From: an uncultured beta proteobacterium
GTDB taxonomy: Bacteria > Pseudomonadota > Gammaproteobacteria > Burkholderiales > Burkholderiaceae_C
Direction of reading: 5' to 3'
Assembly (NCBI GenBank): GCA_903856025.1
Contig: CAIOAQ010000338.1
Coordinates: 1 to 35,799, forward strand
Length of the DNA: 35,799 bases
Each line of letters starts with the position of its first letter. Position 1 is the first letter of the stretch. The position numbers and the translations under genes were made by a program. Positions 459 to 20,649 of the stretch are shown here, one piece after another. The notes beneath the pieces are model-generated. The model was not told the origin of the DNA and ran no database searches. It saw only the letters and a list, made by a program, of their open reading frames with translations.

Positions 459-492
459 TTGTCACGAGACTGTCACATAACCCAGTCACACT
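459..492 (+). promoter_or_regulatory. PhoB box and -10 of the ppk1 promoter
   Basis: TTGTCAC (459-465), spacer GAGA, CTGTCAC (470-476): two 7-mers with an 11-bp period, matching the PhoB half-site consensus. The candidate -10 CACACT (487-492) lies 10 bp after the second half-site, the position expected where PhoB replaces the -35 contact. This predicts induction of ppk1 under phosphate limitation. Confidence 0.8.
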
Positions 493-518
493 GAAAGGCA
501 CTCACTAAATGCGTTAGC

Positions 519-2627
519 ATGATTGCCTCTTCACCTGTTCCAGATAAAACTACGTCAAAACCTGTTGACACCCATTGGCTAGACCGCGACGTGAGTCTGC
601 TGGCGTTCAACGCGCGGGTGCTTTATTGGGCGCAAAAGCCTGACGTTCCCCTGTTGGAGCGGTTGCGCTACCTGTGCATCGTGTCGTCCAATCTGGACGA
701 GTTTTTTGAAGTGCGTGCAGCCCTTTACACCAGTCTGGCCAAGCCCAAGGCTGACCTGAGCGCTATTGATGCGAAGGCCCAAGAGGCGCTGAGTCTGGCG
801 GTGCACACCTTGGTAGATGCGCAATATGCCCTGTACAACGAAGTGTTGATGCCTGCGTTTACCAAGGAGGGCGTACGCATCGTCCCGCATGGTGACCGCA
901 CCCAGGCGCAACACAGGTGGGTGAAATCTTTTTTTGAGCGGGAGGTGCGACCCTTGCTGCTGCCGGTGGGGTTGGACCCGGCTCACCCTTTCCCGCAGGT
1001 GGCCAACAAGTCGCTAAATTTCATAGTGCGTTTGTCAGGACACGACGCGTTTGGCCGTGACAACGAGATTGCCATCGTCAAGGTGCCGCGCAGCCTGCCG
1101 CGCCTCATTCGGCTGCCCGACAAGCTCTCTGGAAAACGAACGCTGTTTGTGTCGATCTCCAGCGTGATCCGCAGCCACCTTAAAGACTTGTTTCCTGGTC
1201 GTGTGGTGGGTGATTTTTCGCAGTTTCGCGTGACCCGTCATTCTGACCTGTCGGTAGACGAAGAGGATGTGAAAAACCTGCGAACTGCGCTGCGACAAGG
1301 TCTGGTACACCGCAACTATGGTCAGGCCGTGCGTCTGGAGGTGTCGGCAGGCTGTGTAGAGTATTTGGCTGACATGTTGCTGCGCCAGTTTGAGTTGCCG
1401 GCTTCAGCTTTGTACCGTGTGCACGGGCCTGTGAACCTGGTGCGGCTCAACCAGTTGATTGATATGGTGGATCAGCCCAAATGGTTGTTCCCGCACTACG
1501 AGCCGAGTTTTCCTCAGCAACTCGTCACCCATACTTCCATTTTTGATCGGCTTAAAACGGGCGATGTGTTGATCCATCAGCCGTATGAAAGTTTTGACGG
1601 CGTACTGGCATTTTTGAGAGAGGCCGTACACGATCCCGCTGTGCTGGCCATCAAGCAAACCATTTATCGTACCGGATCGGACTCGGCACTGATGGAACTG
1701 CTGCGCCAGGCGGTCCAGCGTGGCAAAGAGGTTACGGTGGTGGTAGAGCTCAAAGCCCGTTTTGATGAAGAGGCCAATATCAACTGGGCAGAGAAACTGG
1801 AGTACATCGGCGCACAAGTGGTGTACGGCGTGGTGGGCCTGAAGACCCATGCAAAGATGCTGCTGATCTCAAGGCGCGAAGGACGCGTCATTCATCGCTA
1901 TGCACATCTGTCCACGGGCAACTACAACCCCAAAACTGCACGGTTGTATACCGATTTGAGCTATCTCACCGCCAACCCCAAAGTGACGCAAGACATCGAG
2001 GCGGTGTTTGGGCTGCTTGCCAACCAAAGCCGCATTCCGCGCTTGAACAAGTTGATCTTGGCGCCGTTTGCCTTGCAGCGAAGCATGATTGATTGGGTGG
2101 ACAAGACTGCAAAGGTCGCCGCAGCAGGCGTGGCGAGCCGCATTATTCTGAAGATGAACTCACTCACCGACGACAAGTTGATGGAAGCGCTGGTACGTGC
2201 GGGTCAGGCAGGGGTACAGATTGACCTGATTATTCGTGGTGCCTGCATGCTGCCAGCCCAGCGTGTGGGGTTCACCGACAACATTCGCGTGCGTTCCATC
2301 ATCGGGCGCTTTTTGGAGCATTCGCGGGTGTTCTATTTTTGCGCTGGCAATGAGGTAGCCCTGTATCTTTCTAGCGCTGACTGGATGAGTCGCAACATGC
2401 TGCGTCGTGTTGAACTGGCTTGGCCGGTAGAAGATGTTGCTCTGCGCCAGAGAATTGTGGACGAATGTCTACAGACCTATTTGCTAGACAGTGTAGATGC
2501 CTGGACGATGCATTCAGACGGCCGATATACCCAGGTGCATCCAGTAAAAAGCCGACCTACGGCGAAGCCCAAAGTGGTGCTGGGTGCGCAAGGTAAGCTG
2601 ATGGCCATTCATTCGGCAAAGTCATAA
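519..2627 (+). CDS. ppk1: Polyphosphate kinase 1
   Basis: 702 aa, normal for Ppk1, which reversibly moves the gamma-phosphate of ATP onto a polyphosphate chain. The N-terminal domain has the family signature SNLDEFFEVR. The two catalytic histidines are visible: H444 in LKTHAKMLL (the residue that becomes phosphorylated) and H463 in YAHLSTGNYN, followed by TARLYTDLSY. The C2 domain contains IIRGACML and SIIGRFLEHSRVFYF. ATG 519 is chosen because the Ppk N-terminus (LDRDVSLLAFNARVL) follows about 20 residues later; there is no strong ribosome binding site directly in front. A PhoB box lies upstream and the sixA-like gene follows after 19 bp, so they are probably co-transcribed. Confidence 0.97.
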   Translation: MIASSPVPDKTTSKPVDTHWLDRDVSLLAFNARVLYWAQKPDVPLLERLRYLCIVSSNLDEFFEVRAALYTSLAKPKADLSAIDAKAQEALSLAVHTLVDAQYALYNEVLMPAFTKEGVRIVPHGDRTQAQHRWVKSFFEREVRPLLLPVGLDPAHPFPQVANKSLNFIVRLSGHDAFGRDNEIAIVKVPRSLPRLIRLPDKLSGKRTLFVSISSVIRSHLKDLFPGRVVGDFSQFRVTRHSDLSVDEEDVKNLRTALRQGLVHRNYGQAVRLEVSAGCVEYLADMLLRQFELPASALYRVHGPVNLVRLNQLIDMVDQPKWLFPHYEPSFPQQLVTHTSIFDRLKTGDVLIHQPYESFDGVLAFLREAVHDPAVLAIKQTIYRTGSDSALMELLRQAVQRGKEVTVVVELKARFDEEANINWAEKLEYIGAQVVYGVVGLKTHAKMLLISRREGRVIHRYAHLSTGNYNPKTARLYTDLSYLTANPKVTQDIEAVFGLLANQSRIPRLNKLILAPFALQRSMIDWVDKTAKVAAAGVASRIILKMNSLTDDKLMEALVRAGQAGVQIDLIIRGACMLPAQRVGFTDNIRVRSIIGRFLEHSRVFYFCAGNEVALYLSSADWMSRNMLRRVELAWPVEDVALRQRIVDECLQTYLLDSVDAWTMHSDGRYTQVHPVKSRPTAKPKVVLGAQGKLMAIHSAKS

Positions 2628-2646
2628 ACCAGAAAGTGACTTGGTG

Positions 2647-3123
2647 ATGGATTTGATTCTTTGGCGACACGCGCAAGCACATGATGCCTTACCTGGTTGT
2701 GAAGATTTGTCGCGGCAATTGACCCATAAGGGTGAGGGTCAGGCGGCACGTGTGGCCGGATGGCTTGATCGTCAATTGCCGCAAAGTGCCCGAGTTATTT
2801 CGAGTCCTGCACGGCGTGCTGAGCAAACTGCCAGGTCACTGGGTCGAAAGTTCAAACTGCGTGACGAATTGAGGCCAGATGGATCAGTCGATGACGTGTT
2901 GAACCTGATCAAATGGTCAGTTGACAGTGGTCCTCCGCACAAAGGTGCGGTATTGCTGATAGGGCATCAACCGACGTTTGGGCAGATCGTCGCACGCTTG
3001 ATGGGTGTCAGCGAACAAGCATGCGATATACGCAAAGGTGCAGTATGGTGGCTGCGCAGTCGTTTGCGCGACGATCAACTGAAAACCTCACTGTTGGTAG
3101 TCATTAGCCCAGATCTCATTTAG
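2647..3123 (+). CDS. sixA: SixA-like phosphohistidine phosphatase (histidine phosphatase superfamily)
   Basis: 158 aa from ATG 2647; TTG/GTG starts at 2641/2644 are possible but add only two residues. The superfamily signature RHA (R7-H8 in LILWRHAQA) is at the N-terminus. SSPARRAEQTA supplies the second arginine and LLIGHQPTFG the second catalytic histidine. Length and motifs fit SixA, which dephosphorylates phosphohistidine on histidine-kinase phosphotransfer domains or the nitrogen PTS. The gene follows ppk1 by 19 bp, so it probably shares its phosphate-responsive promoter. The substrate here is not determined by sequence. Its 3' end overlaps the convergent gene by 8 bp. Confidence 0.85.
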   Translation: MDLILWRHAQAHDALPGCEDLSRQLTHKGEGQAARVAGWLDRQLPQSARVISSPARRAEQTARSLGRKFKLRDELRPDGSVDDVLNLIKWSVDSGPPHKGAVLLIGHQPTFGQIVARLMGVSEQACDIRKGAVWWLRSRLRDDQLKTSLLVVISPDLI

Positions 3124-3568: not shown

Positions 3569-3593
3569 GACTGAACCTTTGAAGAGTAAAAGA

Positions 3594-3630
3594 TGTAAAC
3601 AGTATATATCGTTTACATTTTTCAAGTCAA
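3594..3630 (-). promoter_or_regulatory. Promoter with overlapping palindromic operator for the H1-like gene
   Basis: On the minus strand a -35 TTGACT (3625-3630) and -10 TATACT (3601-3606) are 18 bp apart. A perfect inverted repeat TGTAAAC-N10-GTTTACA (3594-3617) covers the -10. A dimeric repressor bound there would block RNA polymerase; the encoded protein itself is a candidate. Confidence 0.55.
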
Positions 3631-3774
3631 CTTGCGGTCCTGCGACATTCGGCCTCGCGTTTGAATATTTTTTGAACGAATTTGATATGCATCAGATATC
3701 CGATAGTTTTGGCTCGGTCTGAATGTTTCAGATGGTTACCATTTCACCAGTCATCCAGACGAAAGGCTTTGTAC

Positions 3775-3999: not shown

Positions 4000-4070
4000 G
4001 GTTGCGTTCAAAATCAGCAGTGAGCGGCCGATTTTTCGCTTAAATTCGCGTTGGTCCTATCTTGGTTGTT

Positions 4071-5660
4071 CTATAAAAGCGCCAGGGCCAACCCAGGCAA
4101 CTTGAATCGACTCGTGACATCACGCAAATCATTCGCTTGGTCTTGAAGATTTTTTGCCGCCGCCGCCGATTCTTCCACGACTGCTGCATTCTGCTGGGTC
4201 ATTTGATCTAGCTGGCTGATCGCCACGTTGATGCTTGCCATACTGCTGCTTTGTGAACTGCTACCTGCATGTATTTCTCCAATTGCAACAGTGACGTTTT
4301 CAATGGATTTGGTAATGGTGCCCATGGTGGCACGGGCAAGTCTCACTTTGTTCGTACCTGTATTGATTTTTGCCACCGAGCTATCAATCAGCGTTTTAAT
4401 TTCACGTGCCGCTTGCGCTGATCGATTTGCGAGTGCTCGCACTTCGGTCGCCACCACTGCAAATCCGCGCCCCTGCTCACCGGCACGTGCGGCCTCGACA
4501 GCAGCATTGAGTGCCAGGATATTGGTTTGAAAGGCGATGCTGTCAATGACCCCAATGATGTCGACAATTTGCTGCGATGACTCATTGATTTCGTTCATTG
4601 TTTGCATCACCTCGGACATAACTGCACTGCCGGTGACCGCCTCCAGGGAAGTCGACTTCGCCAACGATTCACCTCGAAGCGTTGCTTCGAGCGAAGCCTG
4701 CGACGATGCGGAAATTTCATAAATGGCCGAGGCGGTCTGCTGAAGAAAGGACGCAGCCAACTCGGTACGATTGGATAAATCAAGGTTACCCGCTGCGATT
4801 TGTGTTGCACCCTCTGCGACATTGTGGCTCGCGCCTTGAACCTGATGCACTAGTGTATGAAGTGAAGCCTGCATCATATTCAATGCCACTAACAATCGGC
4901 CGGCTTCATCGCGTTCATGACCTTCAATGATGCTTGTTAAGTCTAACGACGCTACCAGATTGGCTGTGGTGACGGCCTGCTGAATTGGACGAGTGATGTT
5001 GCGGACCAGCCATGTTGACAATATGCCACCTAGCAAGAACGCGCAGATGCTGAACAAGATCAAACCCCAGCGAGCCGTCAGGCTCAATTCGTTGATGGCT
5101 GCAACCGAAGATTCAATATTGCTGCGCTGGGCATCTCCCAGCTGATTTACGGACTTTTGTAGCTCTTGTGCTGCTGGTGTAAACGTGTTGGCATAGACCT
5201 GTTCAATCTTTGCAGTGACACCGCTGTCACGAGCATTAGTTAATTCCTGGCGGGCCTTGTTGAACTTGAGATTCGCCTCTGTCATACGACTAAGGGTTTC
5301 CCTGTCCTCTGGTGCGGTGAGCTTGGTGCTCAAGTTTTGCAACACGGTGTCAATTTGGGCAGAGGTCTGATTGATTTCAGGTATCAGTGCGTCTCCGACC
5401 TGCGGTTCAGAACTCAGGGCAAAGGCTTTGGAACGTGCCACATTGATCAAAATATGGCGTTGCAATTCACCCGTCAAACGTTCTGTCGATATGACTTCAT
5501 CAACCATTCTTTCAGTTTCTTTCGAGACCTTGAGAAGTGACCAAAATCCAAGCGTTGAGCCCAAAAGTGCCACTGCCAATACCAATGCAAAAACTATTTT
5601 TATTTTGCTGGAAAAGGATCCTCGTTCATTGATCAATGGTGTTGAATCTGACTTTGACAT
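4071..5660 (-). CDS. Methyl-accepting chemotaxis protein
   Basis: About 529 aa from ATG 5660 (a GTG at 5672 is the alternative). TM1 lies at about residues 20-42 ([19 protein letters not shown]). A periplasmic four-helix-type sensor domain follows, then TM2 ([20 protein letters not shown]), a HAMP linker ([11 protein letters not shown]) and a long signalling coiled coil. Its hairpin tip is recognisable ([20 protein letters not shown], then [15 protein letters not shown]), the region that binds CheA/CheW. There is no C-terminal CheR-tethering pentapeptide. The sensor resembles the Tar/Tsr-like 4HB class, whose ligand cannot be read from sequence. It is a single gene with no chemotaxis genes nearby. 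Confidence 0.93.
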
Positions 5661-6073
5661 GAAGGAATGCACTTTCTGACTGTCCGGTCAAGGTGGATAT
5701 GACTAAGGGTAAACCCCTGTAGATTACGACCGGAATATGACTGTTTGATGAACGTGCAGGGTGTGCCATTCCCTCAGCGTTATCCGTTGGTCAAGGGATG
5801 AAAGGCATGCCGTGTGGAACTTGTTATCGCCGGTTCATCAAACGAGATCGCTGCAGCGCAACCATCTCCACGAGGCCTCCAACAATGCATGCTGGAATGG
5901 CAATGAACCTATAAAAATTGAGCTTGAATTGCATGCGTGCCCCTTGTCGAAAAAATGCGAAACGTCTAGCAGCATGCCTGCCAAAAATGACACTTTCGTG
6001 TCACTGCAAAATTACAACAATCTCAGTGGTTTCGGGTGTTTGCGGCAGGCGACTGCCTGTATGCTCCGCGGCT
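5661..6073. other. Non-coding gap between chemotaxis receptor and M14 gene
   Basis: About 410 bp between divergent genes. It holds the promoter of the receptor gene (no clear -35/-10 or sigma-28 site seen) and a candidate PhoB-like/palindromic site at 5987-6004. A plus-strand frame at 5761-6084 is open but has no ribosome binding site and no recognisable protein features. Confidence 0.5.
5987..6021 (+). promoter_or_regulatory. Candidate weak PhoB box, also a perfect inverted repeat
   Basis: ATGACAC (5987-5993), spacer TTTC, GTGTCAC (5998-6004) have the 11-bp half-site period, with AACAAT (6016-6021) as a -10 11 bp later. The same bases form the perfect inverted repeat TGACAC-TTTC-GTGTCA (5988-6003). 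It could therefore be the operator of an unrelated dimeric regulator instead. Confidence 0.4.
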
Positions 6074-7075: not shown

Positions 7076-7081
7076 TGACTC

Positions 7082-7837: not shown

Positions 7838-7893
7838 TTGTCATTGAAATGCAATGTAAGTGCCATATGGTTGTCACTCGGAAAGGTCAGGAT
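7838..7893 (+). promoter_or_regulatory. PhoB-box array and -10 of the plcP promoter
   Basis: Four half-sites with an exact 11-bp period: TTGTCAT (7838-7844), ATGCAAT (7849-7855, weak), GTGCCAT (7860-7866) and TTGTCAC (7871-7877). The candidate -10 CAGGAT (7888-7893) lies 10 bp after the last one. Two tandem PhoB dimers could bind. Confidence 0.82.
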
Positions 7894-7919: not shown

Positions 7920-8801
7920 ATGCGCGCTGAATTCGATGCCATGGTTCCCAGGCTCAACAACTTGCTGGCTCATGACACCGATGAGCCTGAAGGGACACGT
8001 CGTGAGCGCTTGCGTGCCATATTCATCTCCGATCTGCACTTAGGTACACCCGGCTGTCAGGCCAAAGCGTTGCTTGAGTTCATCAAAGCTAACCCCAGTG
8101 ATTATCTTTACTTGGTTGGGGACATCGTGGATGGGTGGCAATTACGTCGTCGATGGTTTTGGCCGGAGTTGCATAACCAAGTGGTACAAAAGTTGTTGCG
8201 ACGTGCACGAAAAGGATGCCGCATCATTTATGTACCTGGTAACCATGATGAATTTGTCAGGGCGTTTTTCGGTCATCAATTTGGTGGCATCGAAGTGGTC
8301 GATGATGCTGTTCACGTTACCGCTGATGGAAAAAGTTTATGGGTCACCCATGGCGACCGCTTTGATGCAGTGATTCAGTGCGCCAAGTGGCTGGCTTACC
8401 TGGGTGACAACATGTATGAGCTGACATTGCGACTCAATAGTCATTTGAACCATTGGCGTGCCCGTTTGGGCTTGCCGTATTGGTCCCTTTCTGCCTATCT
8501 CAAACACCGTGTGAAGAAAGCAGTCATGTATGTCAATGACTTTGAAGAAGCCGTGGCCCATGAAGCGAAACGCCGAGGCCACCATGGTGTGGTGTGCGGA
8601 CACATTCACCGGGCCGAAATGCGTGACATTCACGGTGTACTTTATTGCAACGATGGTGATTGGGTAGAGAGTTGCACCGCGTTGGTAGAACATCACGATG
8701 GCCGTCTGGAGTTACAGCATTGGCCCAATGGCATCGGAATGGACACCGATACAAGCCGAATCGAAGTCTCTCGTCCATTTGTCACCGTACTGACACCGTA
8801 G
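7920..8801 (+). CDS. plcP: PlcP-type metallophosphoesterase (phospholipase C of the LpxH-like family)
   Basis: 293 aa; GGAG lies 8 bp before ATG 7920. All metallophosphoesterase blocks are present: D38/H40 in ISDLHLG, D68 in VGDIVDGW, N108-H109 in PGNHDEF, H144 in THGDRFD, and H228/H230 in CGHIHRAEM. The pattern (GDIVDGWQLRRRW, NQVVQKLLRRARKG) matches, as I recall it, the group often annotated UDP-2,3-diacylglucosamine hydrolase that includes Sinorhizobium meliloti PlcP. PlcP removes the phosphorylated head group from phosphatidylcholine or phosphatidylethanolamine during phosphate starvation, leaving diacylglycerol. The PhoB array upstream and the ols genes nearby favour PlcP over the lipid A enzyme LpxH. 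It is in an operon with the EAL-GGDEF gene 9 bp downstream. Confidence 0.85.
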   Translation: MRAEFDAMVPRLNNLLAHDTDEPEGTRRERLRAIFISDLHLGTPGCQAKALLEFIKANPSDYLYLVGDIVDGWQLRRRWFWPELHNQVVQKLLRRARKGCRIIYVPGNHDEFVRAFFGHQFGGIEVVDDAVHVTADGKSLWVTHGDRFDAVIQCAKWLAYLGDNMYELTLRLNSHLNHWRARLGLPYWSLSAYLKHRVKKAVMYVNDFEEAVAHEAKRRGHHGVVCGHIHRAEMRDIHGVLYCNDGDWVESCTALVEHHDGRLELQHWPNGIGMDTDTSRIEVSRPFVTVLTP

Positions 8802-8810: not shown

Positions 8811-10679
8811 ATGAAATCCAAACAATTTTTGGATTCGGTCATGCTCTATTCCATCCCACAATCACGCTATCGCGCCAACATTGTTGAGCTTGATAAACCA
8901 AGTGCCACGATACTGACTTTGACCGGTGGTCAAGGTCCTCTGGGGGCGGTGCTGCAAAAGAATCAATTGCACCCGGTGTTTCAGCCCATCGTTCATCTTG
9001 GTGAGGCGAACGTTTACGCACATGAGGCACTCATTCGCGGGCCGCTGGGCGATGCATTGCATACCCCAGATGCACTGCTGGCAGCAGCAGCAGCAGAACA
9101 CCTTGAATACGAATTTGAATTGGCCTGTATGCAGGTGCAGTTGCAAGGTTGGGGACAACGCAAGGCTGCGGGTCGACTGTTTTTGAATGTCAGCGCGTCG
9201 GTATTGATTGAGTTTGTTTTGTCGGCAGGAGTCCATGGCATGCTCAGCATGATCAGACTTTCTGGCGTTTCGCCACGCATGATCGTGTTTGAAATTACTG
9301 AGCATGTGCGCGTAACCGACATGGATCAATTAGGAGCCGTGGTGCACCAACTTCGGTCAGCTGGAATTTCGCTGGCGTTGGACGACTTTGGGGACGGGCG
9401 TTCAAGCCTGCGGTTGTGGTCTCAACTTCGCCCAGAGATCGTGAAGATTGACAAGTATTTCATCTCAAACATCAGCGAGCAGGCCGACAAATTGAAGACA
9501 GTGCGAGCGTTGATTCAACTGGCCGAAATTTTTGACACGCAACTTGTGGCAGAAGGTATTGAACGCCCGGAAGATTTGCGTGTCTTAAGGGACATGGGAA
9601 TCACTTTTGGGCAGGGCTATTTTTTTGGTCGTCCCGATACGAGCCCGTTGGCGACGGTCGCTCCTCAGGCAACGGCAGTTCTTGAAGAACGAGGAATTTC
9701 CGTGTTCCCTCAATTGAGCAAAGCAACGCCCGAAGGCTATTTGAGTCAAATGAGCATCTTGAATGCGCCTGCGGTGACGCCACAAACAACGAACGACGAG
9801 GTGGCAACCATTTTCCTGGCGCACCCCGATCTGCATGCGCTTGCGGTGTTGGACGAAGGTAGGCCAGTGGCGATCCTTAATCGCCTGAAATTCATCAATG
9901 AATATGCCAAGCTCTATTACCGCGACATCTCTGGGCGAAAGAGCTGTCTCATCAATGCCAATACTGAACCGCGACTGATCGAAAAATGTCATCAAATTGA
10001 TGAGTTGGTCGGTATTCTGACCTCTGAAGATCAGCGCTATCTGACGGATGGTTTTATCGTGACCGACAATGGCCGTTACGTGGGGTTGGGTACGGGGGAT
10101 CAATTGGTACGCTCAGTCACCGAGACGCGCATTGAGGCCGCCAGGCATGCCAATCCGTTAACCTTTTTGCCTGGCAACATTCCGATCAGTCAACACATTG
10201 ATCGGCTCCTGAAGAAACAGAGCAATTTTGTGGCTTGCTACGCAGACTTGAACAACTTCAAGCCCTACAACGATTGTTACGGATATTGGCGTGGTGATGA
10301 AATGATTCGCCTGATGGCCAACATAGCCAAGCAACACTGCGATGCGCAGCGCGACTTTTTAGGACATGTCGGTGGCGATGACTTTATTTTGTTGTTTCAA
10401 AGCGCAGATTGGCGAACACGCTGTGATCGAATTGTGAGCCAATTCAATGCGCGTGCCGTCGAACTTTTTGATGAAGCTGCCAGACAAGCAGGCGGGATAC
10501 ATGCAGAAGACCGCCACGGTGTGGCGCGTTTTTTCTCGTTCACAACGGTGTCAGTTGGGGCGGTAGCTGTCTTTGGCGGTCAATATTCGCGGGCGGCGGA
10601 CGTCGCCAACTTGGCAGCACAGGCAAAGCATGAAGCCAAACGCACCGGTGCGGGCTTGTACGAGCTGGTCTTTCACTGA
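8811..10679 (+). CDS. EAL-GGDEF c-di-GMP enzyme with a central CBS-like region
   Basis: 622 aa from ATG 8811 (ATG 8841 is possible). EAL domain at about 45-280, with the catalytic set E72 (EALIRG), N126 (LNVSAS), E161/E164 (FEITE), D191-D192 (LDDFGDG), K212 (VKIDK), E248 (VAEGIE) and Q268 (GQGYFFGRP). It should therefore hydrolyse c-di-GMP. The middle region (~300-440; APAVTPQTTNDEVATIF, then FIVTDNGRYVGLGT) looks like a degenerate CBS pair. GGDEF domain at ~455-622 with the active-site loop GGDDF (521-525); no RxxD inhibitory site is seen at the usual position. EAL-first order is less common than GGDEF-EAL. It is cytoplasmic, with no membrane segment, and is co-transcribed with plcP, which implies phosphate-controlled c-di-GMP turnover. 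Confidence 0.88.
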   Translation: MKSKQFLDSVMLYSIPQSRYRANIVELDKPSATILTLTGGQGPLGAVLQKNQLHPVFQPIVHLGEANVYAHEALIRGPLGDALHTPDALLAAAAAEHLEYEFELACMQVQLQGWGQRKAAGRLFLNVSASVLIEFVLSAGVHGMLSMIRLSGVSPRMIVFEITEHVRVTDMDQLGAVVHQLRSAGISLALDDFGDGRSSLRLWSQLRPEIVKIDKYFISNISEQADKLKTVRALIQLAEIFDTQLVAEGIERPEDLRVLRDMGITFGQGYFFGRPDTSPLATVAPQATAVLEERGISVFPQLSKATPEGYLSQMSILNAPAVTPQTTNDEVATIFLAHPDLHALAVLDEGRPVAILNRLKFINEYAKLYYRDISGRKSCLINANTEPRLIEKCHQIDELVGILTSEDQRYLTDGFIVTDNGRYVGLGTGDQLVRSVTETRIEAARHANPLTFLPGNIPISQHIDRLLKKQSNFVACYADLNNFKPYNDCYGYWRGDEMIRLMANIAKQHCDAQRDFLGHVGGDDFILLFQSADWRTRCDRIVSQFNARAVELFDEAARQAGGIHAEDRHGVARFFSFTTVSVGAVAVFGGQYSRAADVANLAAQAKHEAKRTGAGLYELVFH

Positions 10680-10704: not shown

Positions 10705-12198
10705 CTAGGCGATGATCAACTCAAACGTCCAGGAGGTTTTTTGCCAAGAAACACACTCCTGGCGCAAAAGATGTGTGGACTGCGGATAGTTGGTCACCCA
10801 AGCTTCACTGATGGCCAAGGTGAAGCGTTGACGTTGGATATTGCAGCTCAATTTCAACCCATGATCATCGGGGACTCGGCGGGCGTGGCACAAAATAACA
10901 GCCAATCGTAAAGCCAATAGCTGTATGACAAATTCTGGCTCCTCAAAGTCGTCATCCAGCTTTTTTAATTTACCACGATGGCCCAGCACCAGCAGCCCTA
11001 AGCGATGTAATTCAGGCAAGCTGAAGCCCACTGTATCGGCGTTTTCCAGGATGTAGGCACCATGTTTATGGTAATCGCTGTTGGAAATAGCCATACCTAT
11101 TTCGTGGAGCGTGGCCGCCCATCGCAGCTTGCGCGTGAGTTCCATGGTGCGTACGGATGCTTCATGCATGAGTTGCGCCATCAGGTTACACGCCACTTGG
11201 CTCACACGTTCGCCTTGCGCAATATCCACCGCAAATTTTTGTGACAAACGTTGTACAGAAGTGTCCCTCGCGTCCGTGTCATGGTCATGACGATCTACCA
11301 TTTCAAGCAGCACACCATGGCGCAAGGCACCTTGCGCCACCTGCAGAGTGTCAATGTGCAGCAACTCCATCAGACCGCGCAGTACGCTGACACCACCACC
11401 GATCACGGCCCGGCGGTCGTCTTTCAGGCCTTCGAGTTGAATTTTATTGGCGTTACCAGCGCGAATCAAACATTTGACCAGCCAGTTCAAGCCATCCCGA
11501 CTGATTTGATTCGCGGGCCATCCAGCCATGGTTAGCACGTCGGCCACCGCTCCGACGGTACCGGATGCGCCGTACGCGGCATCCCACTGGCTGCGCGGGT
11601 AAGTTTGAAGTGCCTCCTCCAAGACGGCTTGTGCGGCAATTTCGGCGCGGTAGAAGGCTTGTTCTGTGAATTCACCCTTTGGAAAGTATTTCATTGACCA
11701 AGCCACGCTGCCCACCCGAAACGATGCGGTTTGCAAGGTCTGCGTGCCCACACCCAGCACCAGTTCGGTGGATCGCCCCCCAACGTCAATGACCAAGCGG
11801 TGTTCATCGCTTTGCGGCAACCCATGCACGACGCCTTGGTAGATCAGCCGTGCCTCTTCGGTGCCCGCGATCACTTCAATGGGAAAACCAAGGATTCTTT
11901 GACCGTGTTCAATGAATTCATCGCGATTTTTGGCTTCGCGCAGGGTTTGTGTGGCCACGGCACGCACCTGCTCGGGGGCAAAACCAGATAAACGCTCGGC
12001 AAAGCGTGCCAAGCAATCCCAACCGCGCGTCATCGCTTCCAGCGATAGATTGCGGTCGTCATCGAAGCCATTGCCTAAGCGTACGGTTTCCTTGAGGTAA
12101 TCCACGCGAAAGATTTGACCATGGTCGTAACGACCTATTTCCAGCCTGCAGCTGTTGGAGCCCAAGTCAATGGCTGCTAAAAAAGTACCGTTTTGCAT
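10705..12198 (-). CDS. ppx: Exopolyphosphatase, Ppx/GppA family
   Basis: 497 aa from ATG 12198, which sits immediately before the ASKHA-fold phosphate-1 motif (LAAIDLGSNSCRLEI). Further motifs are GTEEARLIYQGV, IDVGGRSTELVLG (phosphate-2) and the C-terminal HD-like part (WAATLHEIGMAI, then HKHGAYIL). The long form with the C-terminal domain is typical of Ppx, which releases phosphate processively from polyphosphate, and also of GppA. The ppk1 gene nearby and the phosphate-type promoter favour Ppx. It is transcribed away from olsB, and its tail is convergent with the EAL-GGDEF gene. Confidence 0.92.
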   Translation of the reverse strand: MQNGTFLAAIDLGSNSCRLEIGRYDHGQIFRVDYLKETVRLGNGFDDDRNLSLEAMTRGWDCLARFAERLSGFAPEQVRAVATQTLREAKNRDEFIEHGQRILGFPIEVIAGTEEARLIYQGVVHGLPQSDEHRLVIDVGGRSTELVLGVGTQTLQTASFRVGSVAWSMKYFPKGEFTEQAFYRAEIAAQAVLEEALQTYPRSQWDAAYGASGTVGAVADVLTMAGWPANQISRDGLNWLVKCLIRAGNANKIQLEGLKDDRRAVIGGGVSVLRGLMELLHIDTLQVAQGALRHGVLLEMVDRHDHDTDARDTSVQRLSQKFAVDIAQGERVSQVACNLMAQLMHEASVRTMELTRKLRWAATLHEIGMAISNSDYHKHGAYILENADTVGFSLPELHRLGLLVLGHRGKLKKLDDDFEEPEFVIQLLALRLAVILCHARRVPDDHGLKLSCNIQRQRFTLAISEAWVTNYPQSTHLLRQECVSWQKTSWTFELIIA

Positions 12199-12205: not shown

Positions 12206-12239
12206 AGTGTAAGCAAACCGCATGACAAAACGGTGTCAG
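12206..12239 (-). promoter_or_regulatory. PhoB box and -10 of the ppx promoter
   Basis: On the minus strand CTGACAC (12233-12239), spacer CGTT, TTGTCAT (12222-12228) are followed after exactly 10 bp by -10 TACACT (12206-12211). The ATG is only 7 bp further on, so transcription would start at or within a base or two of the start codon. No ribosome binding site is visible, consistent with a leaderless mRNA. Confidence 0.8.
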
Positions 12240-12272: not shown

Positions 12273-12328
12273 ATGTCACAAAATTGCCATGAAACCGCCA
12301 TCAAGGTGTCACTAGAGGTGCAGATCAT
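12273..12328 (+). promoter_or_regulatory. PhoB-box array and -10 of the olsB promoter
   Basis: Four half-sites at exact 11-bp steps: ATGTCAC (12273-12279), TTGCCAT (12284-12290), CCGCCAT (12295-12301) and GTGTCAC (12306-12312). The candidate -10 GATCAT (12323-12328) lies 10 bp downstream. The olsB ribosome binding site AAGGAG is at 12343-12348. Confidence 0.85.
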
Positions 12329-12354
12329 TGCGTCGTTTAACCAAGGAGAACGAC

Positions 12355-13193
12355 ATGAAAGAACTGCCAAACCCAACATTTGCTTTTTCCCCTGTCTCCC
12401 AGCCCAGGGGGTCACTTCACCGATCCGAAACAACACCGCTGGGTTCGCCGATTTCTGGCGCTGCGCGAGGTGGTATCACCGTGGCTTGGGCAAGGCACAC
12501 AGATGAAGTCCGTGCGGCGCAGCGCCTGAGGTACCAGATATTTGCCGAGGAAATGGGTGCGCGTCTGACGAGCCCGATTCCAGGGCACGACATGGACTTG
12601 TTTGACAATTACTGCGAACATCTTTTGGTCCGCGATCAAGCAAGTCAGGAGGTGATTGGCACCTACCGGGTGCTCACCCCCGCGCAGGCCAAACGCGTAG
12701 GCAGCACCTACAGCGACACCGAGTTCGATTTGACACGCCTGCGTGGCCTGCGCGACCGCATGGTGGAACTGGGCCGCAGTTGCGTGCATCCGGAGCACCG
12801 CCACGGCGGGGTGATCATGGCGTTGTGGGGTGCACTCGCAGAGTTCATGGTACGCAACCAGTTGGACACCATGATCGGCTGCGCCAGCATCCCGATGTTG
12901 CACAACGGTGTGATCAGCGGCGATGTGGCAGCCAGCATTTGGCAGCAACTCAAAGCCACCCATCTCGCGCCGATTGATTACCATGTGCGCCCACGTCTGC
13001 CATTGCCGGTGGATCAGCTCGATGGCAGTCTGCCAGTGGAGCCGCCGGCACTTATCAAGGTTACTTGCGCTTGGGTGCCAAGGTGTTAGGTGCACCTGCT
13101 TGGGACCCGGATTTCAACAGCGCTGATCTGCCGATGATGATGTGCATCAACGACCTTCCGCTTCGTTATCGCAAGCATTTTTTAGGTGCTTAA
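12355..13193 (+). pseudogene. olsB: OlsB-like L-ornithine N(alpha)-acyltransferase, frameshifted near the 3' end
   Basis: ATG 12355 has AAGGAG 6 bp upstream. The product is a GNAT/hemolysin-like acyltransferase (RYQIFAEEMGARL, HLLVRD, GTYRVL, VELGRSCVHPEHR, LIGCASI-type core) of the OlsB family. OlsB transfers a 3-hydroxyacyl chain from acyl carrier protein to ornithine, giving lyso-ornithine lipid. The zero frame is normal up to ALIK (codon 235) and then runs to TAG 13087-13089 as a short aberrant tail. Reading one base back from 13060 restores a typical OlsB ending for 43 codons (YLRLGAKVLG, then PAWDPDFNSADLPMMM, then RYRKHFLGA) to TAA 13191-13193. One G appears to be missing in the AAGG at 13058-13061. 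No classic slippery site is visible. A recent mutation or an assembly error fits best. Confidence 0.85.
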
Positions 13194-13203: not shown

Positions 13204-13944
13204 TCACGGCGCTAACCGCAAATCGCTGACTGCCGCACGCACATCTGCAGCCATCCTTCGGCGGTCACGCCCCTGTGGATGCTGCAGCGAGCCAAAGTTG
13301 AGCGTTGCACGAAGCGGTGGGGCTTTGAGCGTGCGCCAAATGGAGGCCATCAGGGAGTCTTGGTCAATATAAATCGGGGCCATGCTCGGTTGCCCCGTGG
13401 TCAGGTCTGAGTACTGCAGGGCCACAGGTTGTACGGAAACTTGGGCTGAAATGGCAGCCTGAAACAGGTTTGAATGAAAGGGAAGCACCTGCAGACCGTT
13501 GCTGGTGGTGCCTTCGGGGAAAACAGCCAGCTTGTCACCGGTTTGAAGATGCTCCGTCATTTGGTGCACCACCCGCACGGCATCCCGGGGCGATTGGCGA
13601 GTGATGAACAACGTACCGGCGGCAACGGCCAGTCTGCCCACCACGGGCCACTGGCGCACCTCGGATTTGGCTACGAAGCGGCAGGGAGATGTGGCCAGTA
13701 CGACGTAAATGTCCAGCCATGACACATGATTGGCCGCCAACAACACCGGACCTGGTTTGGGTTGCTCACCGATCACTACTAAATTAATAGCTATCTTGTC
13801 AAGAAGTACGAGGGCCCAAGCCTGAATTCTTATATTTTTTTGTGCTTGGTTCAATTTCGGAAAAATAAGCGTGATGGTCGCCAGACCGCTGACTAGGTGG
13901 AACGCTACGCGTGTCAATTTCCAGCAGGCACGAAAAGTGTTCAT
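13204..13944 (-). CDS. olsA: OlsA-like lyso-ornithine lipid O-acyltransferase (PlsC family)
   Basis: 246 aa. The two main PlsC-family acyltransferase blocks are visible: NHVSWLD (HX4D) and VFPEGTTSNG, with a hydrophobic N-terminus (RVAFHLVSGLATITLIF) for membrane association. PlsC proteins add an acyl chain to lysophosphatidic acid, while the OlsA branch acylates lyso-ornithine lipid. OlsA is favoured because the gene ends 10 bp from the restored olsB stop, convergent with it, and has its own PhoB array. Residues ~36-57 are encoded by a copy of the interspersed repeat inserted before the HX4D motif, so this copy is slightly longer than usual. Confidence 0.82.
   Translation of the reverse strand: MNTFRACWKLTRVAFHLVSGLATITLIFPKLNQAQKNIRIQAWALVLLDKIAINLVVIGEQPKPGPVLLAANHVSWLDIYVVLATSPCRFVAKSEVRQWPVVGRLAVAAGTLFITRQSPRDAVRVVHQMTEHLQTGDKLAVFPEGTTSNGLQVLPFHSNLFQAAISAQVSVQPVALQYSDLTTGQPSMAPIYIDQDSLMASIWRTLKAPPLRATLNFGSLQHPQGRDRRRMAADVRAAVSDLRLAP
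13775..13836. repeat. Interspersed ~60-bp repeat, copy 1 (inside olsA)
   Basis: Contains ACTAAATTAATAGCTATCTT followed about 20 bp later by GAGGGCCCAAGCCTGAATTC. It aligns at equal length with the copies at 21807, 23719, 27366 and 30855 on the pattern TAGC-N21-GGG-N6-GCC/GTT-GAATT. It is read in frame within olsA. Confidence 0.65.
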
Positions 13945-13964: not shown

Positions 13965-14004
13965 CGACAGATGATGTGGCAAATCCATGTCAGTTTGATG
14001 ACAA
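13965..14004 (-). promoter_or_regulatory. PhoB-box array and -10 of the olsA promoter
   Basis: Minus strand: TTGTCAT (13998-14004), CTGACAT (13987-13993) and TTGCCAC (13976-13982) at exact 11-bp steps. CATCAT, 10 bp after the second half-site, is a plausible -10 (13971-13976). The array directly abuts the plus-strand array of the next gene. Confidence 0.8.
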
Positions 14005-14009
14005 ACCAC

Positions 14010-14054
14010 AGTTCACGCGGCTGTCACAACCTTGTCACACCGCGCGTCCAAGAT
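14010..14054 (+). promoter_or_regulatory. PhoB-box array and -10 of the HAD phosphatase promoter
   Basis: AGTTCAC (14010-14016), CTGTCAC (14021-14027) and TTGTCAC (14032-14038) at exact 11-bp steps, the last two near consensus. The candidate -10 CAAGAT (14049-14054) lies 10 bp after the last half-site. Confidence 0.85.
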
Positions 14055-14087
14055 TGCGTGACCAATCATCTGAAAAGGATATTTCTC

Positions 14088-15371
14088 ATGCATCGTCGTT
14101 CTTTGATCAAAGCCTTGGGCACTGGCATGCTCGCCGTACCGGTTCTTTCGTCTGCAGCCAATTCAGGCAAGGCGGGATCAACGCCGTTTCAATCAATTGA
14201 CCCGGCACGTTGGTCCGGCTTCAATGCGGGCGAATTGAACCATTTGCTGCAGACACACGGCAAGACAAGCAAAAGTTACAACCCGAACAAAAGACCTTAC
14301 GCCGTCTTTGACTGGGATAACACCTGCATCATGAACGACTGCGAGGAAGCGCTGTTGGTGTATCAGATTGACCGGTTAGCGTACAAGCTCAACCCGCAAG
14401 AATTCGCTGAAGTCCTGCGAACTGGCGTACCCAACGGACCATTCAAGGTAGAAGCGGGCTACAAGAACACGGAAGGCAAGCCGGTCTTGTTTGAGGACAT
14501 CGCCGCTGACGTGGAAGCAGACTATCGGTGGATTTATGCCAACTTCAAAGACTTCGCTGGTTCGATGACACTGGAGCAGATTCAGGGTACTGAACAATTC
14601 AAAGACTTCCGCGCCAAGATGTACTTCATGTATGACGCGATCTGTGACAGCCACCCTATAGAAGTTGGCTACAAATGGATACTCTACTTCTACAAAAACA
14701 TGTCAGTTGCTGAGTTGCAAACTTTGGCAGAAGCGTCCAATGATTTCAATCTTGGTGACGCGTTGCGCAAAGTCAAAATGCCCAGTTCCGACAAACTGAC
14801 CGGAAAAGCTGGTCAGGTCATTGCAAGCCACTTTTTTGGATTACGGATCCATAGCGAGATGGTGAACTTGATGAACACCTTGCGTGCTGACGGTTTTGAT
14901 GTTTACGTTTCTACCGCGTCGATTGATGATGTGGTGCGCGTATTTGCTGGAAACACCAAGTATGGCTACAACATTCCCCCAGAAAATGTCATAGGTCTGC
15001 GCCTGGACATGCAGGACGGCAAGTACACCAATAGTTACCGTAAAGACTGGCATTTCAACTGGGGTCCAGGCAAAACTGTGGGTATACAAAATGAGTTGGT
15101 GGCCAAGAAAGGATACGGACCAGCCTTGGTATTGGGCGACAGTGACGGTGATGCATGGATGCTCAAGGACTTTAGCGACACCCAACTGGGGGTGGTGGTT
15201 AATCGCCTTAAAACCGGGGAAATTGGCGAGCGCAGCAAGTCTGCAGCGGCCACCATTGGGCAACCCGGCACACGCTTTATTTTGCAAGGGCGAAATGAAA
15301 GCACGGGCATATTCATACCAGACGAAAAGACGCTGAAGTACGGTAAGACAGAGGTAAAATTGCTGGCTTAG
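14088..15371 (+). CDS. Exported HAD-superfamily phosphatase
   Basis: 427 aa from ATG 14088, preceded by AAAAGGAT; the frame is open to 13911 but that part overlaps the PhoB boxes. The N-terminus MHRRSLIKALGTGMLAVPVL is a signal peptide with a twin-arginine-like RRSLIK, so a periplasmic site is likely. HAD motifs: I, D75/D77 in VFDWDNTC; II, S275 in VYVSTAS; III, a lysine in PGKTVGI; IV, D351/D353/D355 in LGDSDGDAW. It should hydrolyse phosphate monoesters by a phospho-aspartate route. Periplasmic phosphorylcholine phosphatase (PchP) of Pseudomonas has the same general plan, but substrate identity here is a guess. PhoB-type promoter upstream; TRAP genes follow after 120 bp. Confidence 0.85.
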   Translation: MHRRSLIKALGTGMLAVPVLSSAANSGKAGSTPFQSIDPARWSGFNAGELNHLLQTHGKTSKSYNPNKRPYAVFDWDNTCIMNDCEEALLVYQIDRLAYKLNPQEFAEVLRTGVPNGPFKVEAGYKNTEGKPVLFEDIAADVEADYRWIYANFKDFAGSMTLEQIQGTEQFKDFRAKMYFMYDAICDSHPIEVGYKWILYFYKNMSVAELQTLAEASNDFNLGDALRKVKMPSSDKLTGKAGQVIASHFFGLRIHSEMVNLMNTLRADGFDVYVSTASIDDVVRVFAGNTKYGYNIPPENVIGLRLDMQDGKYTNSYRKDWHFNWGPGKTVGIQNELVAKKGYGPALVLGDSDGDAWMLKDFSDTQLGVVVNRLKTGEIGERSKSAAATIGQPGTRFILQGRNESTGIFIPDEKTLKYGKTEVKLLA

Positions 15372-15974: not shown

Positions 15975-15986
15975 TATTGAGCCGTC

Positions 15987-17441: not shown

Positions 17442-17529
17442 TTGATGAAGGTTGTTTGCGGTTCGTTCAGTCGCTATAAGGCTGTATTAGTTAAATTTGC
17501 AACAATATCTACGACAGCCAGACCGAACG

Positions 17530-18840
17530 TCAGTGTTCGTGGACTTCATCCGGTTCTGGCAATTGAATCATGCCGGTGTTGTAGTTGTAGCTGTATACCT
17601 CGCCGTGGCGTCCCCAGCCGATGGCAACGTTAAGGACGCGTTCGGCTTCTTCCTTGTCAAGGGTTTCACGCAACATGTCCAGGAAATGTTCCTCTTTAAG
17701 CTCTCTTGCAGGCTCTTGGCTCAGGCTATGTTGAATGTGTGCGGCCAGCGGCACCCGTTTTAACAATTGTTTGGCGAACATCGTCTGGCGTTCGTCATTT
17801 TCAGCTGCAACATAGCGTTTGCCAAGATCGGTAACCGACACGTCGCCCCGTGCAAGCATTGCAAATTCCAGCAATTCAAGCGCCTCCGCTGCGGGCAGCA
17901 ACTCTTCGTCAGTCAGTTCGGTTTCATCACCCAATTGCGGCAAGTCGGCATGACCCAAGAAGGGGTCTTCCATGAGGCGTTCGAGCAGGCCTTCCATAAG
18001 ACCAATATCCGCATCGGGAAGACGCGCATCCAGTCGCATCGGTTCCAACTCTTCCGTGGTTCTCCCCGTACGCACGCGGCCCGCGGTCATGACGGCATAA
18101 ATTTCATCGACCAAATATCTGACCTCTTGGCTGTCTGCATCGCGCGGGCGGGGAAGATCTACACGCATTTCATAACGAACTCGCCCTGGATCACTGGCAA
18201 ATATCAGCACCCTGTCCGCCATCATGATTGCTTCCTGGATATTGTGCGAAACCACCAAAATGGCCTTGGTGGAGATTTGTTCCTCTTCCCAAAGCTCCAA
18301 AATATCATCGCGCAGACGTTCCCCAGTGAGCACATCCAAGGCGGAAAATGCCTCGTCCATCAACAATACGTCGGGGTCCACCACCAAGGCACGGGCAATG
18401 CCCACACGCTGGCGCATGCCACCCGAAAGCTCTCGTGGCAATGCACCTTCAAAACCTGAAAGACCGATCAAATCAATCACCTTCTCGGCACGCTCTTCAC
18501 GCTCTGCAGCGGGAACGCCTTGAGCCTCCAGCCCAATTTCCACGTTTTGTTGCACGGTGAGCCAGGGAAATAGCGCAAAGGACTGGAAAACCATGCTGAT
18601 TCCGCGTGCTGGCCCAAACAGCGGCTGCCCGCGGTACAACACGTCGCCGCGGTCTGCCATCACCAAACCGGCCATGATGCGCAACAAGGTGGATTTGCCG
18701 GAACCAGATTGACCCAACAACGCAACGATTTCTCTCTCTCTCAGGGTGAAATCGACATTGTCCAGAACCGTCCGCGGCGCGCCGTCTGCCGAACTGAAAG
18801 ATTTACCGACACCCTTGAGGCTAACGATAGTGGGGTTCAT
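17530..18840 (-). CDS. ABC importer ATPase with C-terminal AAA-associated domain (nitrate/sulfonate-type)
   Basis: 436 aa from ATG 18840 (the frame is open further upstream inside the permease gene). Walker A GQSGSGKST (43-51), Q-loop MVFQSFALFPW, signature LSGGMRQRVG, Walker B VLLMDEAFSALD and H-loop VVSHN are all intact, so it should hydrolyse ATP. The first ~255 residues match NitT/TauT-type importer ATPases. The extra ~170 C-terminal residues (MEGLLERLMEDPFLGHADLP onward) look like the AAA-associated C-terminal domain found on some of these ATPases, with a presumed regulatory role. It starts 8 bp after the fused permease gene, in the same operon. Confidence 0.9.
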   Translation of the reverse strand: MNPTIVSLKGVGKSFSSADGAPRTVLDNVDFTLREREIVALLGQSGSGKSTLLRIMAGLVMADRGDVLYRGQPLFGPARGISMVFQSFALFPWLTVQQNVEIGLEAQGVPAAEREERAEKVIDLIGLSGFEGALPRELSGGMRQRVGIARALVVDPDVLLMDEAFSALDVLTGERLRDDILELWEEEQISTKAILVVSHNIQEAIMMADRVLIFASDPGRVRYEMRVDLPRPRDADSQEVRYLVDEIYAVMTAGRVRTGRTTEELEPMRLDARLPDADIGLMEGLLERLMEDPFLGHADLPQLGDETELTDEELLPAAEALELLEFAMLARGDVSVTDLGKRYVAAENDERQTMFAKQLLKRVPLAAHIQHSLSQEPARELKEEHFLDMLRETLDKEEAERVLNVAIGWGRHGEVYSYNYNTGMIQLPEPDEVHEH

Positions 18841-18848
18841 TCTGATCC

Positions 18849-20579
18849 TTAGAAATGCATGCGGTCTTCGGCCATGCGGTACAGCCGACGCCACAAGAAG
18901 TGATTCAGTGACATGACATAGACGCACATGACGCCTATACCGAGCGCAATGCGGGGGAAGTCGCCGGTGGCAGTCATCTCCGCGATATAGCTTCCAATGC
19001 CGTGGGCTTGAACGGTGGTGTCGCCCCAAGTGACATATTCGGAAACAATGCTGGCATTCCATGAGCCACCACTCGCGGTAATCGCGCCAGTCACAAAACT
19101 AGGGAACACCGCGGGGAGAAGGTACCGTCGCCAGCGCAAGGTTCCTTTCAGGCCAATGTTGCGCGCAGCAAATCGCAATTCAGTCGGGATGGTGGATGCG
19201 CCGGCGATCACGTTGAACAGCAAATACCACTGTGTACCAAAAATCATGAGTGGCGAGAGCCAGATGTCGGGGGTGAGATGAAAATGCACGATGCCCACCA
19301 CAAACATGGGAAACATCAAATTGGCAGGGAACGCCGCCAGAAACTGCGCAACCGCCTGAACCCGTGCCGCAATCTTTGGGTTCATGCCGATCCAGATACC
19401 CACAGGCACCCAAATCAGGGCAGCGAGTGCGATGAGAACCATGACGCGAACGAAGGTGTAGAAGCCCAAAACGAAAACGTGACCGACCTCTGTCCAGCCC
19501 ACTTCAGTTTGGATAAAAACCATCAGCCGCCAGGATGCAAACATGATCAACGCTGCCAAGATGGCATCCCACGCACGAACCAGCGTTTGAGACGGTAGCT
19601 CGACTCGGGATTTGATAGAGGTTCCATCATGGTGCTTACGGAATAAACCAAAGCTACGGTTAAGCAAGCCAGCGAGACCTTCGCCCAATGACTGCAGCCG
19701 TTCAGTTCTGCGAAGCCACGTTAATAACCACGAGGTCTGGTCCTGTGTGCCGCCAATTTCCTCAAAGCGGAACTTGTCGGCCCATGCCAACAGTGGGCGA
19801 AAGAACAATTGGTCATACAAAAGTATTCCAATCAGCATGGCTATGACTGCTAACCCAATGGCTCCCAAATTTTTGACCTCAATCGCCATCGCGATATAGG
19901 AGCCGATACCCGGTAGTTTGATGTTTTGGTTGGAAACGGAGATCGCTTCGGAGGCAACCACGAAGAACCAACCGCCAGACATGGACATCATCATGTTCCA
20001 CAGCAGGGACGGCATGGCGTAGGGCATGTCCAAACGCCAGAAACGATGCCAGCCGGAAAGTTGAAATACCCGGGATGCCTCTACCAACTCGGATGGAATG
20101 GTTCTGAAAGACTGGTAAAGGCTAAAGGCCATGTTCCAGGCTTGTGAAGTAAAAATTGCAAAAATTGCAGCGCACTCAACGCCAAAAAGGCTGCCTGGAA
20201 AAAGGGCGATGAATCCTGTCACCGTAATGGACAGAAAACCCAGAATCGGTATGGACTGCAAGATGTCCAACATTGGCACCAGAAACTTTTCCGCTGCGCG
20301 GTACTTGGTTGCCAATACCGCAAAGGCCACGCTAAAAATCAAGGACGCTGCCAGTGCCATGAACATGCGCAGGATGGTGCGCAGAAGGTAGTACGGCAAG
20401 TAGGCGATATCGAGTGATATCGGCAACTCATTGCCGATTTGATAAGGCGTCGCCATTTGTCGTGCCCCATACGCGATGAGCACGATGACCGCCAGCACCA
20501 AGGGCAACAACGCCCAATCCCAACGGTTGCCACCGGCTTCCACCACCTGCCGAGGGAAGAATGTTTTTTGATCAGCCAT
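18849..20579 (-). CDS. Fused two-domain ABC transporter permease (NitT/TauT family)
   Basis: 576 aa, roughly twice a normal permease, with two binding-protein-dependent transport domains: about residues 70-265 (ILQSIPILGFLSI and the SELVEASRVFQLSGWHRFWR coupling loop) and about 330-570 (FLAAFPANLMFPMFVVGI and the PTELRFAARNIGLKGTLRWR loop). Each half has five to six helices, so one chain supplies the whole pore. First gene of an operon with the ATPase. A PhoB box lies 50-70 bp upstream. Neither gene is accompanied by a substrate-binding protein. The substrate is unknown; a small anion is the family expectation. Confidence 0.9.
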   Translation of the reverse strand: MADQKTFFPRQVVEAGGNRWDWALLPLVLAVIVLIAYGARQMATPYQIGNELPISLDIAYLPYYLLRTILRMFMALAASLIFSVAFAVLATKYRAAEKFLVPMLDILQSIPILGFLSITVTGFIALFPGSLFGVECAAIFAIFTSQAWNMAFSLYQSFRTIPSELVEASRVFQLSGWHRFWRLDMPYAMPSLLWNMMMSMSGGWFFVVASEAISVSNQNIKLPGIGSYIAMAIEVKNLGAIGLAVIAMLIGILLYDQLFFRPLLAWADKFRFEEIGGTQDQTSWLLTWLRRTERLQSLGEGLAGLLNRSFGLFRKHHDGTSIKSRVELPSQTLVRAWDAILAALIMFASWRLMVFIQTEVGWTEVGHVFVLGFYTFVRVMVLIALAALIWVPVGIWIGMNPKIAARVQAVAQFLAAFPANLMFPMFVVGIVHFHLTPDIWLSPLMIFGTQWYLLFNVIAGASTIPTELRFAARNIGLKGTLRWRRYLLPAVFPSFVTGAITASGGSWNASIVSEYVTWGDTTVQAHGIGSYIAEMTATGDFPRIALGIGVMCVYVMSLNHFLWRRLYRMAEDRMHF

Positions 20580-20614
20580 TTGAACAGTGGTTTATAAAGA
20601 GAAATAGACCTTCA

Positions 20615-20649
20615 ATTGTCGCTTGTGGCGTGTGACAGTTATGTGACCA
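20615..20649 (-). promoter_or_regulatory. PhoB box and -10 of the ABC importer promoter
   Basis: Minus strand: TGGTCAC (20643-20649), spacer ATAA, CTGTCAC (20632-20638), then after 11 bp a -10 GACAAT (20615-20620). The leader would be about 30 nt. The remaining gap up to 20799 shows no other gene. Confidence 0.82.

Follow-up and report, generated by a model that had tools for sequence, protein, structure and literature searches.

PhoB-type promoter arrays at polyphosphate, lipid-remodelling and putative cyclic di-GMP genes in an uncultured beta proteobacterium

The DNA analysed here is a stretch of 35,799 nucleotides from an uncultured beta proteobacterium (the window), representing the whole of contig CAIOAQ010000338.1 (C338) in a 592-contig genome bin (assembly GCA_903856025.1, 4.04 Mb, 92% complete). 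The nearest relatives of its OlsB-like protein belong to Rhodoferax records, within the Comamonadaceae, and the bacterium is of a freshwater type. The window carries genes of polyphosphate turnover and lipid remodelling, an HAD phosphatase, an ATP-binding cassette (ABC) transporter and a putative cyclic di-GMP (c-di-GMP) enzyme, and these genes are preceded by repeats with an 11-bp period that resemble the sites of PhoB (Pho arrays). An original prediction, made from the sequence alone, had reported seven such arrays; all seven were present at the positions and on the strands claimed, each facing its gene. Two more had been overlooked, one at 8780-8796 (plus strand) and a weak one at 5726-5752 (minus strand).

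Sites were scored with a PhoB matrix of 26 columns, built from 32 pstS promoter sites (those of relatives and of this genome's own pstS) and from no site of the window. As background for the matrix we considered 308,494 bp of the same genome, in stretches picked by hand and not randomly drawn. We also considered as an array any group of at least two TGTCAY-like half-sites that kept the 11-bp period and faced a gene. By this half-site criterion the arrays of ppk1, olsB, the HAD gene and the ABC permease gene were strong, and those of plcP, ppx, olsA and a gene for an EAL-CBS-GGDEF protein were weaker.

Pho arrays and the genes they face

The gene for polyphosphate kinase 1, ppk1 (519..2627, plus strand), matched TIGR03705 with 854.6 bits (cut-off 465.85), the only match to this model in the genome, and is preceded by the dimer TGTCACGAGAC-TGTCAC (460..476, plus strand; matrix 29.8). 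A SixA-like histidine phosphatase gene (2641..3123, plus strand; PF00300) probably shares its transcript. The exopolyphosphatase gene ppx lies at 10705..12198 on the minus strand, its start being taken at the M of MQNGTFLAAIDLGSN, and matched TIGR03706 with 311.1 bits (cut-off 307); its dimer is at 12222..12238 (minus strand; matrix 9.3), with the -10-like hexamer TACACT.

Among the lipid-remodelling genes, a plcP-like metallophosphoesterase gene and phospholipase C candidate (7920..8801, plus strand; PF12850/PF00149, with all LpxH-family models under cut-off) follows a four-unit array with poor middle units at 7838..7877 (plus strand; best pair 9.8; -10-like CAGGAT). A four-unit array at 12273..12312 (plus strand; matrix 20.1; -10-like GATCAT) precedes the gene for the N-acyltransferase of ornithine lipid step 1 (12328..13089, plus strand; PF13444 over cut-off), and a three-unit array at 13975..14004 (minus strand; matrix 10.6; -10-like CATCAT) that for the O-acyltransferase of step 2 (13204..13944, minus strand; PF01553). 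The NCBIfam equivalog models stayed under cut-off for both proteins (129.6 against 350 bits for OlsB and 137.3 against 300 bits for OlsA), and we therefore call them OlsB-like and OlsA-like.

The HAD phosphatase gene (14088..15371, plus strand) has a three-unit array at 14011..14038 (plus strand; matrix 17.6; three-unit match with one mismatch; -10-like CAAGAT). Its protein is related by sequence to phosphorylcholine phosphatase (4as2, phmmer 1e-12), yet closer to 4gxt (7.4e-67), a structure deposited as functionally unknown. It is probably exported, and its N-terminus carries what we take to be a twin-arginine-like motif. The ABC permease gene, of duplicated type (18849..20579, minus strand; PF00528), has a dimer at 20632..20648 (minus strand; matrix 17.9) with the -10-like GACAAT at +11, and is followed by an ATPase gene (within 17530-19062; PF00005, PF09821). 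Finally, the overlooked dimer at 8780..8796, TGTCACCGTAC-TGACAC (matrix 11.9; AACAAT at +10), precedes the EAL-CBS-GGDEF gene (8811..10679, plus strand), in which PF00563 (3.6e-46) and PF00990 were over cut-off and CBS was under it; the start is uncertain, with an in-frame ATG at 8841.

A spacing of exactly 11 bp had been claimed throughout. It holds for two good units before ppk1, ppx and the ABC permease gene, as well as before the EAL-CBS-GGDEF gene, and for three or four units, some of them poor, before plcP, olsB, olsA and the HAD gene; it fails for the third GTCAC of ppk1, which comes 13 bp further on and overlaps the -10-like CACACT. The expectation of a -10 element was borne out: a NANNNT hexamer stands at +10 or +11 past a half-site pair in all eight promoters (the seven reported and the new one), whereas the hexamer was found at 8.3% of random positions and after 22 of 300 single TGTCAY sites. 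There was some freedom of choice in this spacing, which was measured from the last pair for olsB and from the first for olsA. Such a spacing past the Pho box is the usual one in Pho regulon promoters.

The arrays are concentrated in the window. The pattern TGTCAYN5TGTCAY, with at most one mismatch, had 61 matches in the 4.04-Mb genome (16 for the reversed-pattern control), and 10 of the 61 fell in this contig, whose 35.8 kb would be expected to hold about 0.5; two of the ten are a single palindrome, at 5987/5988, counted on both strands. By the matrix, 10 sites of the window scored at least 10 against 5 in the background, an enrichment of about 17-fold, so the density is not equal to that of the sampled background. 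Four of these ten do not represent promoters in their own right: 461- mirrors the ppk1 site on the opposite strand, 5987- belongs to the palindrome, 11241- is internal to ppx, and the olsB array contains 12285+ as a second pair. A three-unit pattern with at most two mismatches was uninformative (27 genome matches, 36 in the control).

Chance, or the base composition of intergenic DNA, is hardly credible as the origin of the arrays. Besides the enrichment just described, single-base shuffles of the ppk1, plcP, olsB, olsA and ppx regions reached the matrix threshold in 0-0.8% of cases; the conservation described below speaks in the same direction. In favour of chance, three of the seven arrays (olsA, plcP and ppx) are weak taken alone and score near the background tail. 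We rejected this explanation for the set of arrays; single weak ones may still be due to chance.

Conservation of the arrays in related genomes

The family set was represented by 80 loci around olsB, containing ppk1 in 68 cases, a SixA-like gene in 66, ppx in 51, plcP in 47 and a pstS with a usable start in 31. A frequent arrangement is olsB-plcP-ppk1-sixA-u3116-ppx-pstSCAB-phoU, in places interrupted by other genes; in the closest Rhodoferax loci (e.g. L035-L037), olsB and olsA lie between uvrD and polA with no ppk1 nearby. The gene u3116 (3116-3625 in the window) has no Pfam or NCBIfam match and was found in 41 of the 80 loci. In one locus of the genus (L287), M14 peptidase, alpha/beta hydrolase, olsB, plcP, u3116, the EAL gene, pstSCAB, phoU, phoB and an olsA-like gene are packed in 17 kb with 8 arrays.

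Array density, computed from 63 loci of more than 18 kb, had a mean of 3.2 and a maximum of 8 per 20 kb in the family, against 0.32 in the background of this genome. By the same count, shadows included, the window has 9, just above its highest relative. The clustering had been called unusual, and it is far above the genome's own level, but the whole family is rich in arrays around olsB. What the window shows is a family-wide phosphate neighbourhood in rearranged order and at higher density.

The matrix counts flanking bases and hence undercounts sites outside the genus, and as a complement we counted a plain core, GTCAYN6GTCAY with at most one mismatch, in 280 bp around each start (400 bp for pstS), with the reverse strand and coding stretches as controls. 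The core was present before ppk1 in 62 of 67 relatives (reverse 12, coding 2/67), before olsB in 64 of 79 (reverse 12, coding 31/79) and before pstS in 31 of 31 (reverse 27/31, coding 0/30). For olsA it was found in 9/17 (reverse 6/17, coding 1/17) and for ppx in 13/50 (reverse 12/50, coding 0/50), rising to 6/8 among the ppx relatives with at least 74% identity. No core was found upstream of SixA, u3116, pstA, pstB, phoU, BPSS1780, APH, polA or UvrD, and one was found in 28 for pstC. A second Ppx/GppA-like gene of this genome is divergent from pstS (C328; L123:4752-5735); in relatives both ppx queries matched the same loci, and many loci have a divergent ppx beside pstS.

For plcP the core was found in none of 47 relatives (reverse 0, coding 0). 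In 46 of these 47 loci plcP lies directly 3' of olsB; in three genomes where it stands apart (L245, L246, L248) the upstream matrix scores were 8.2, 9.8 and 12.3, and in the window, too, it stands away from olsB and has its own Pho array. In this case regulation seems to be kept while gene order changes.

Candidate PhoB-type promoters of the polyphosphate and lipid-remodelling genes are thus well supported, because the same motif also precedes pstS and recurs before ppk1 and olsB in relatives. The original prediction, which had put all these genes under joint PhoB control, is upheld in part, as conservation is uneven among the members: the boxes of ppk1 and olsB are conserved and those of the HAD and ABC genes poorly so, and "ester hydrolysis" and "import" appear to be the weaker links of the proposed regulon.

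The HAD gene was found in 5 of 150 family genomes and the ABC permease gene in 31 of 150, this genome included in both counts. The HAD box was absent from its four homologues both by matrix and by plain core, and by matrix the permease box was absent from all 29 relatives (best score 7.5). These negatives would fit a reading in which only the core (ppk1, ppx, olsB, plcP) is Pho-controlled and the HAD and ABC arrays are accidental or lineage-specific; the transporter could then be unrelated to phosphate, and its permease indeed resembles nitrate/sulfonate-type permeases, every match being under cut-off. Against this, the two window scores (17.9 and 17.6) exceed the background maximum of 15.1 and both arrays have a -10-like hexamer. 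By plain core, moreover, the permease box was found in 5 of 29 relatives (reverse 1, coding 0), all five with a -10-like hexamer; the combination of dimer and hexamer was absent from both controls, as were matches at two mismatches, which were found in 8/29 relatives. With the dimer-plus-hexamer result, accidental or lineage-specific HAD and ABC arrays went in our view from somewhat short of even to doubtful.

The EAL-CBS-GGDEF gene

The expectation that the island would predict roles for its lesser-known members is best realised by the EAL-CBS-GGDEF gene, whose array, the most telling of the sites, had escaped the original prediction. The gene was found in 44 of 89 genus genomes at E <= 1e-120, and in 67 of 250 genomes of the wider family, both counts including this genome. 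We fetched 40 genus loci, 39 of them with enough upstream sequence, and the matrix score was at least 10 in 26 of the 39, this genome included; dinucleotide shuffles reached it in 0.6% of cases and coding stretches in 0/39. With 30 loci fetched from the wider family, the core dimer was present in 54 of 65 relatives, that is 29 of 38 in the genus, among which L246, L288 and L291 are near-identical, and 25 of 27 elsewhere in the family; four rows had been dropped as own or duplicate sequences and one as too short. The reverse control gave 6/65 (5 in the genus and 1 elsewhere in the family) and the coding control 3/65 (3 and 0). From these counts and low controls, PhoB control of this enzyme is likely a core trait of the family.

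The neighbours of the gene vary among relatives, and may be ppk1-sixA-ppx, plcP, pstS (L287) or none of these within about 1.5 kb. The box is present in most relatives wherever the gene sits and therefore goes with the gene; as the gene moves and yet mostly keeps its box, it would be the regulatory link that is selected, not the location.

With regard to activity, the protein is a probable c-di-GMP phosphodiesterase. We compared 41 sequences (this genome's being counted twice) against a list of EAL and GGDEF signature residues that we assume to be the relevant ones: HEALIRGP, DDFG and GGDDF were conserved in at least 95% of them, and EITE, KIDK and AEGIE, parts of the EAL signature, were kept as strongly as the GGDDF region. 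A phosphodiesterase is expected from the conservation of the EAL signature residues. The preservation of GGDDF and its surroundings could instead mean that the GGDEF domain dominates, so that the enzyme, still PhoB-controlled, works towards higher c-di-GMP or serves as a sensor; we regard this as unlikely, since the EAL signature is equally conserved and the phosphate-controlled analogue RapA is a phosphodiesterase, according to PMC3032545.

In that source, RapA of P. fluorescens Pf0-1 is, as in the window, a c-di-GMP enzyme with an upstream Pho box; under PhoB control it removes c-di-GMP, and the adhesin LapA is released. RapA may serve as the closest working model for the EAL arm; the domain order in the window is EAL-CBS-GGDEF, and the likeness drawn here is one of regulation. 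Pho control of c-di-GMP therefore has a precedent in RapA; for a Pho-controlled EAL-CBS-GGDEF gene in Comamonadaceae, none was found in the titles and abstract openings of the open-licence papers listed.

We lean slightly towards a wider proposal for the Comamonadaceae, in which PhoB would drive this enzyme so that starvation lowers c-di-GMP, and in some genomes raises a chemoreceptor, alongside phosphorus-free lipid synthesis, the link being selected rather than the location. The polyphosphate metabolism of the island affects the adenylate level, and the CBS part may thus let adenylates tune the enzyme. If this is true, these bacteria would read phosphate directly as a lifestyle signal, through a PhoB box that stands before a c-di-GMP enzyme across the family. 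Among the relatives in the database are records of Rhodoferax, Polaromonas, Limnohabitans and Acidovorax, groups that are known to occur in fresh water and soil.

The candidate chemoreceptor of the window is a methyl-accepting chemotaxis protein with a 4HB sensor (4071..5672, minus strand; PF00015, PF12729), preceded by the weak candidate array at 5726..5752 (two mismatches to the three-unit pattern). Its orthologues had strong boxes in L257 (17.8) and L256 (21.4) and none in L282; two further ones had too little upstream sequence. The phosphate chemoreceptors CtpL/CtpH of P. aeruginosa, whose expression rises at low phosphate according to PMC4926252, differ from it, the window protein having a 4HB-type sensor and a weak box only.

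PhoB control and sites elsewhere in the genome

Taking these results together, we consider with good confidence that the region is the phosphate-starvation neighbourhood of the family, rearranged and enlarged, and under the control of PhoB, the EAL enzyme included. At low phosphate PhoR/PhoB would be activated, and phosphorylated PhoB would bind the 11-bp direct repeats and recruit RNA polymerase to the -10 elements about 10 bp downstream. In this way ppk1, ppx, plcP, olsB, olsA, the HAD phosphatase, the ABC transporter and the EAL-CBS-GGDEF gene would be induced as separate units, and the fall in c-di-GMP that the latter would cause is expected to favour surface release and movement, perhaps with the Pho-driven chemoreceptor.

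The proteobacterial Pho regulon (PhoR-PhoB) has the same 11-bp repeats at pstS, polyphosphate and lipid genes; what differs here is that many separately promoted targets are packed in about 20 kb. In marine plcP clusters (PMC4796936), plcP likewise has a Pho box near phosphorus-free lipid genes, so that this combination is already on record. The partners named there are betaine- and glycolipid genes, whereas plcP in the window is accompanied by olsB/olsA-like genes, ppk1, ppx and the c-di-GMP gene.

Several findings weigh against PhoB control of the whole set. The ppx, plcP and olsA scores are close to the background tail. Reverse-strand counts nearly equalled the upstream count for ppx and were high for olsA and, with no explanation in our analysis, for pstS; the coding control was high for olsB, as it was for SixA (13/66) and UvrD (6/6). 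The HAD box lacks a counterpart in homologues and the ABC box has a loose one in the five relatives only. The dimer of the EAL gene overlaps the end of plcP, with its -10 overlapping the first ATG, and it is missing in 9 of the 38 genus relatives, some of which are near-identical. The names plcP, olsB and olsA are assigned from broad families and gene context. Finally, four of the eight exact sites of the genome (C2, C340, C413 and C564) lie inside called open reading frames (ORFs), where they look like chance occurrences, and no PhoB over the family cut-off was found in the 92% complete bin.

As for this last point, a PhoB over cut-off was found in 14 of the 14 other genus genomes searched. 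The pst contig of this genome begins at phoU and in L287 the PhoB gene directly follows phoU, so it is plausible that phoB sits in an assembly gap next to phoU. The alternative is that the repeats are bound by another regulator of the OmpR family, in which direct repeats of 10-11 bp are presumably general; many other response regulators are present in the bin. We consider this very improbable, given the PhoB of the other genus genomes and the same motif at pstS both here and in relatives.

Precisely, the exact motif before the genome's own pstS is at C328:4704-4720, about 75 bp upstream of the likely pstS ATG. Further pattern sites precede the genes for a phosphate-binding-type protein (C67) and a solute-binding protein (C361); on C14 a site separates a metallophosphoesterase from a porin, and on C144 one coincides with the start of a PF04185 phosphoesterase ORF. 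Ten proteins beside such genomic sites were looked up, and several, among them those of C67, C14 and C144, were of phosphate type. Upstream of a TonB receptor gene and of an ExbB-type gene (C392 and C435; L136, L137) are Pho-like sites with one mismatch. The exact dimer of C413 (L127:2900-3360) sits within a short called ORF, some 600 bases ahead of another chemoreceptor gene.

Within the window, the HAD gene is followed at 15492-17441 by genes for a small protein with no family match and the TRAP large permease DctM, which may be expressed from the HAD promoter; next to them no binding protein was seen. A pair of genes for an M14 carboxypeptidase and an alpha/beta hydrolase (5918-7828) is also found near olsB or plcP in L249, L256, L285 and L287. 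The palindrome TGACAC-N4-GTGTCA (5987-6004) is Pho-like on both strands and near the M14 start; we rejected the M14 peptidase gene as a Pho member, the palindrome having no counterpart upstream of the relatives' M14 genes that were examined.

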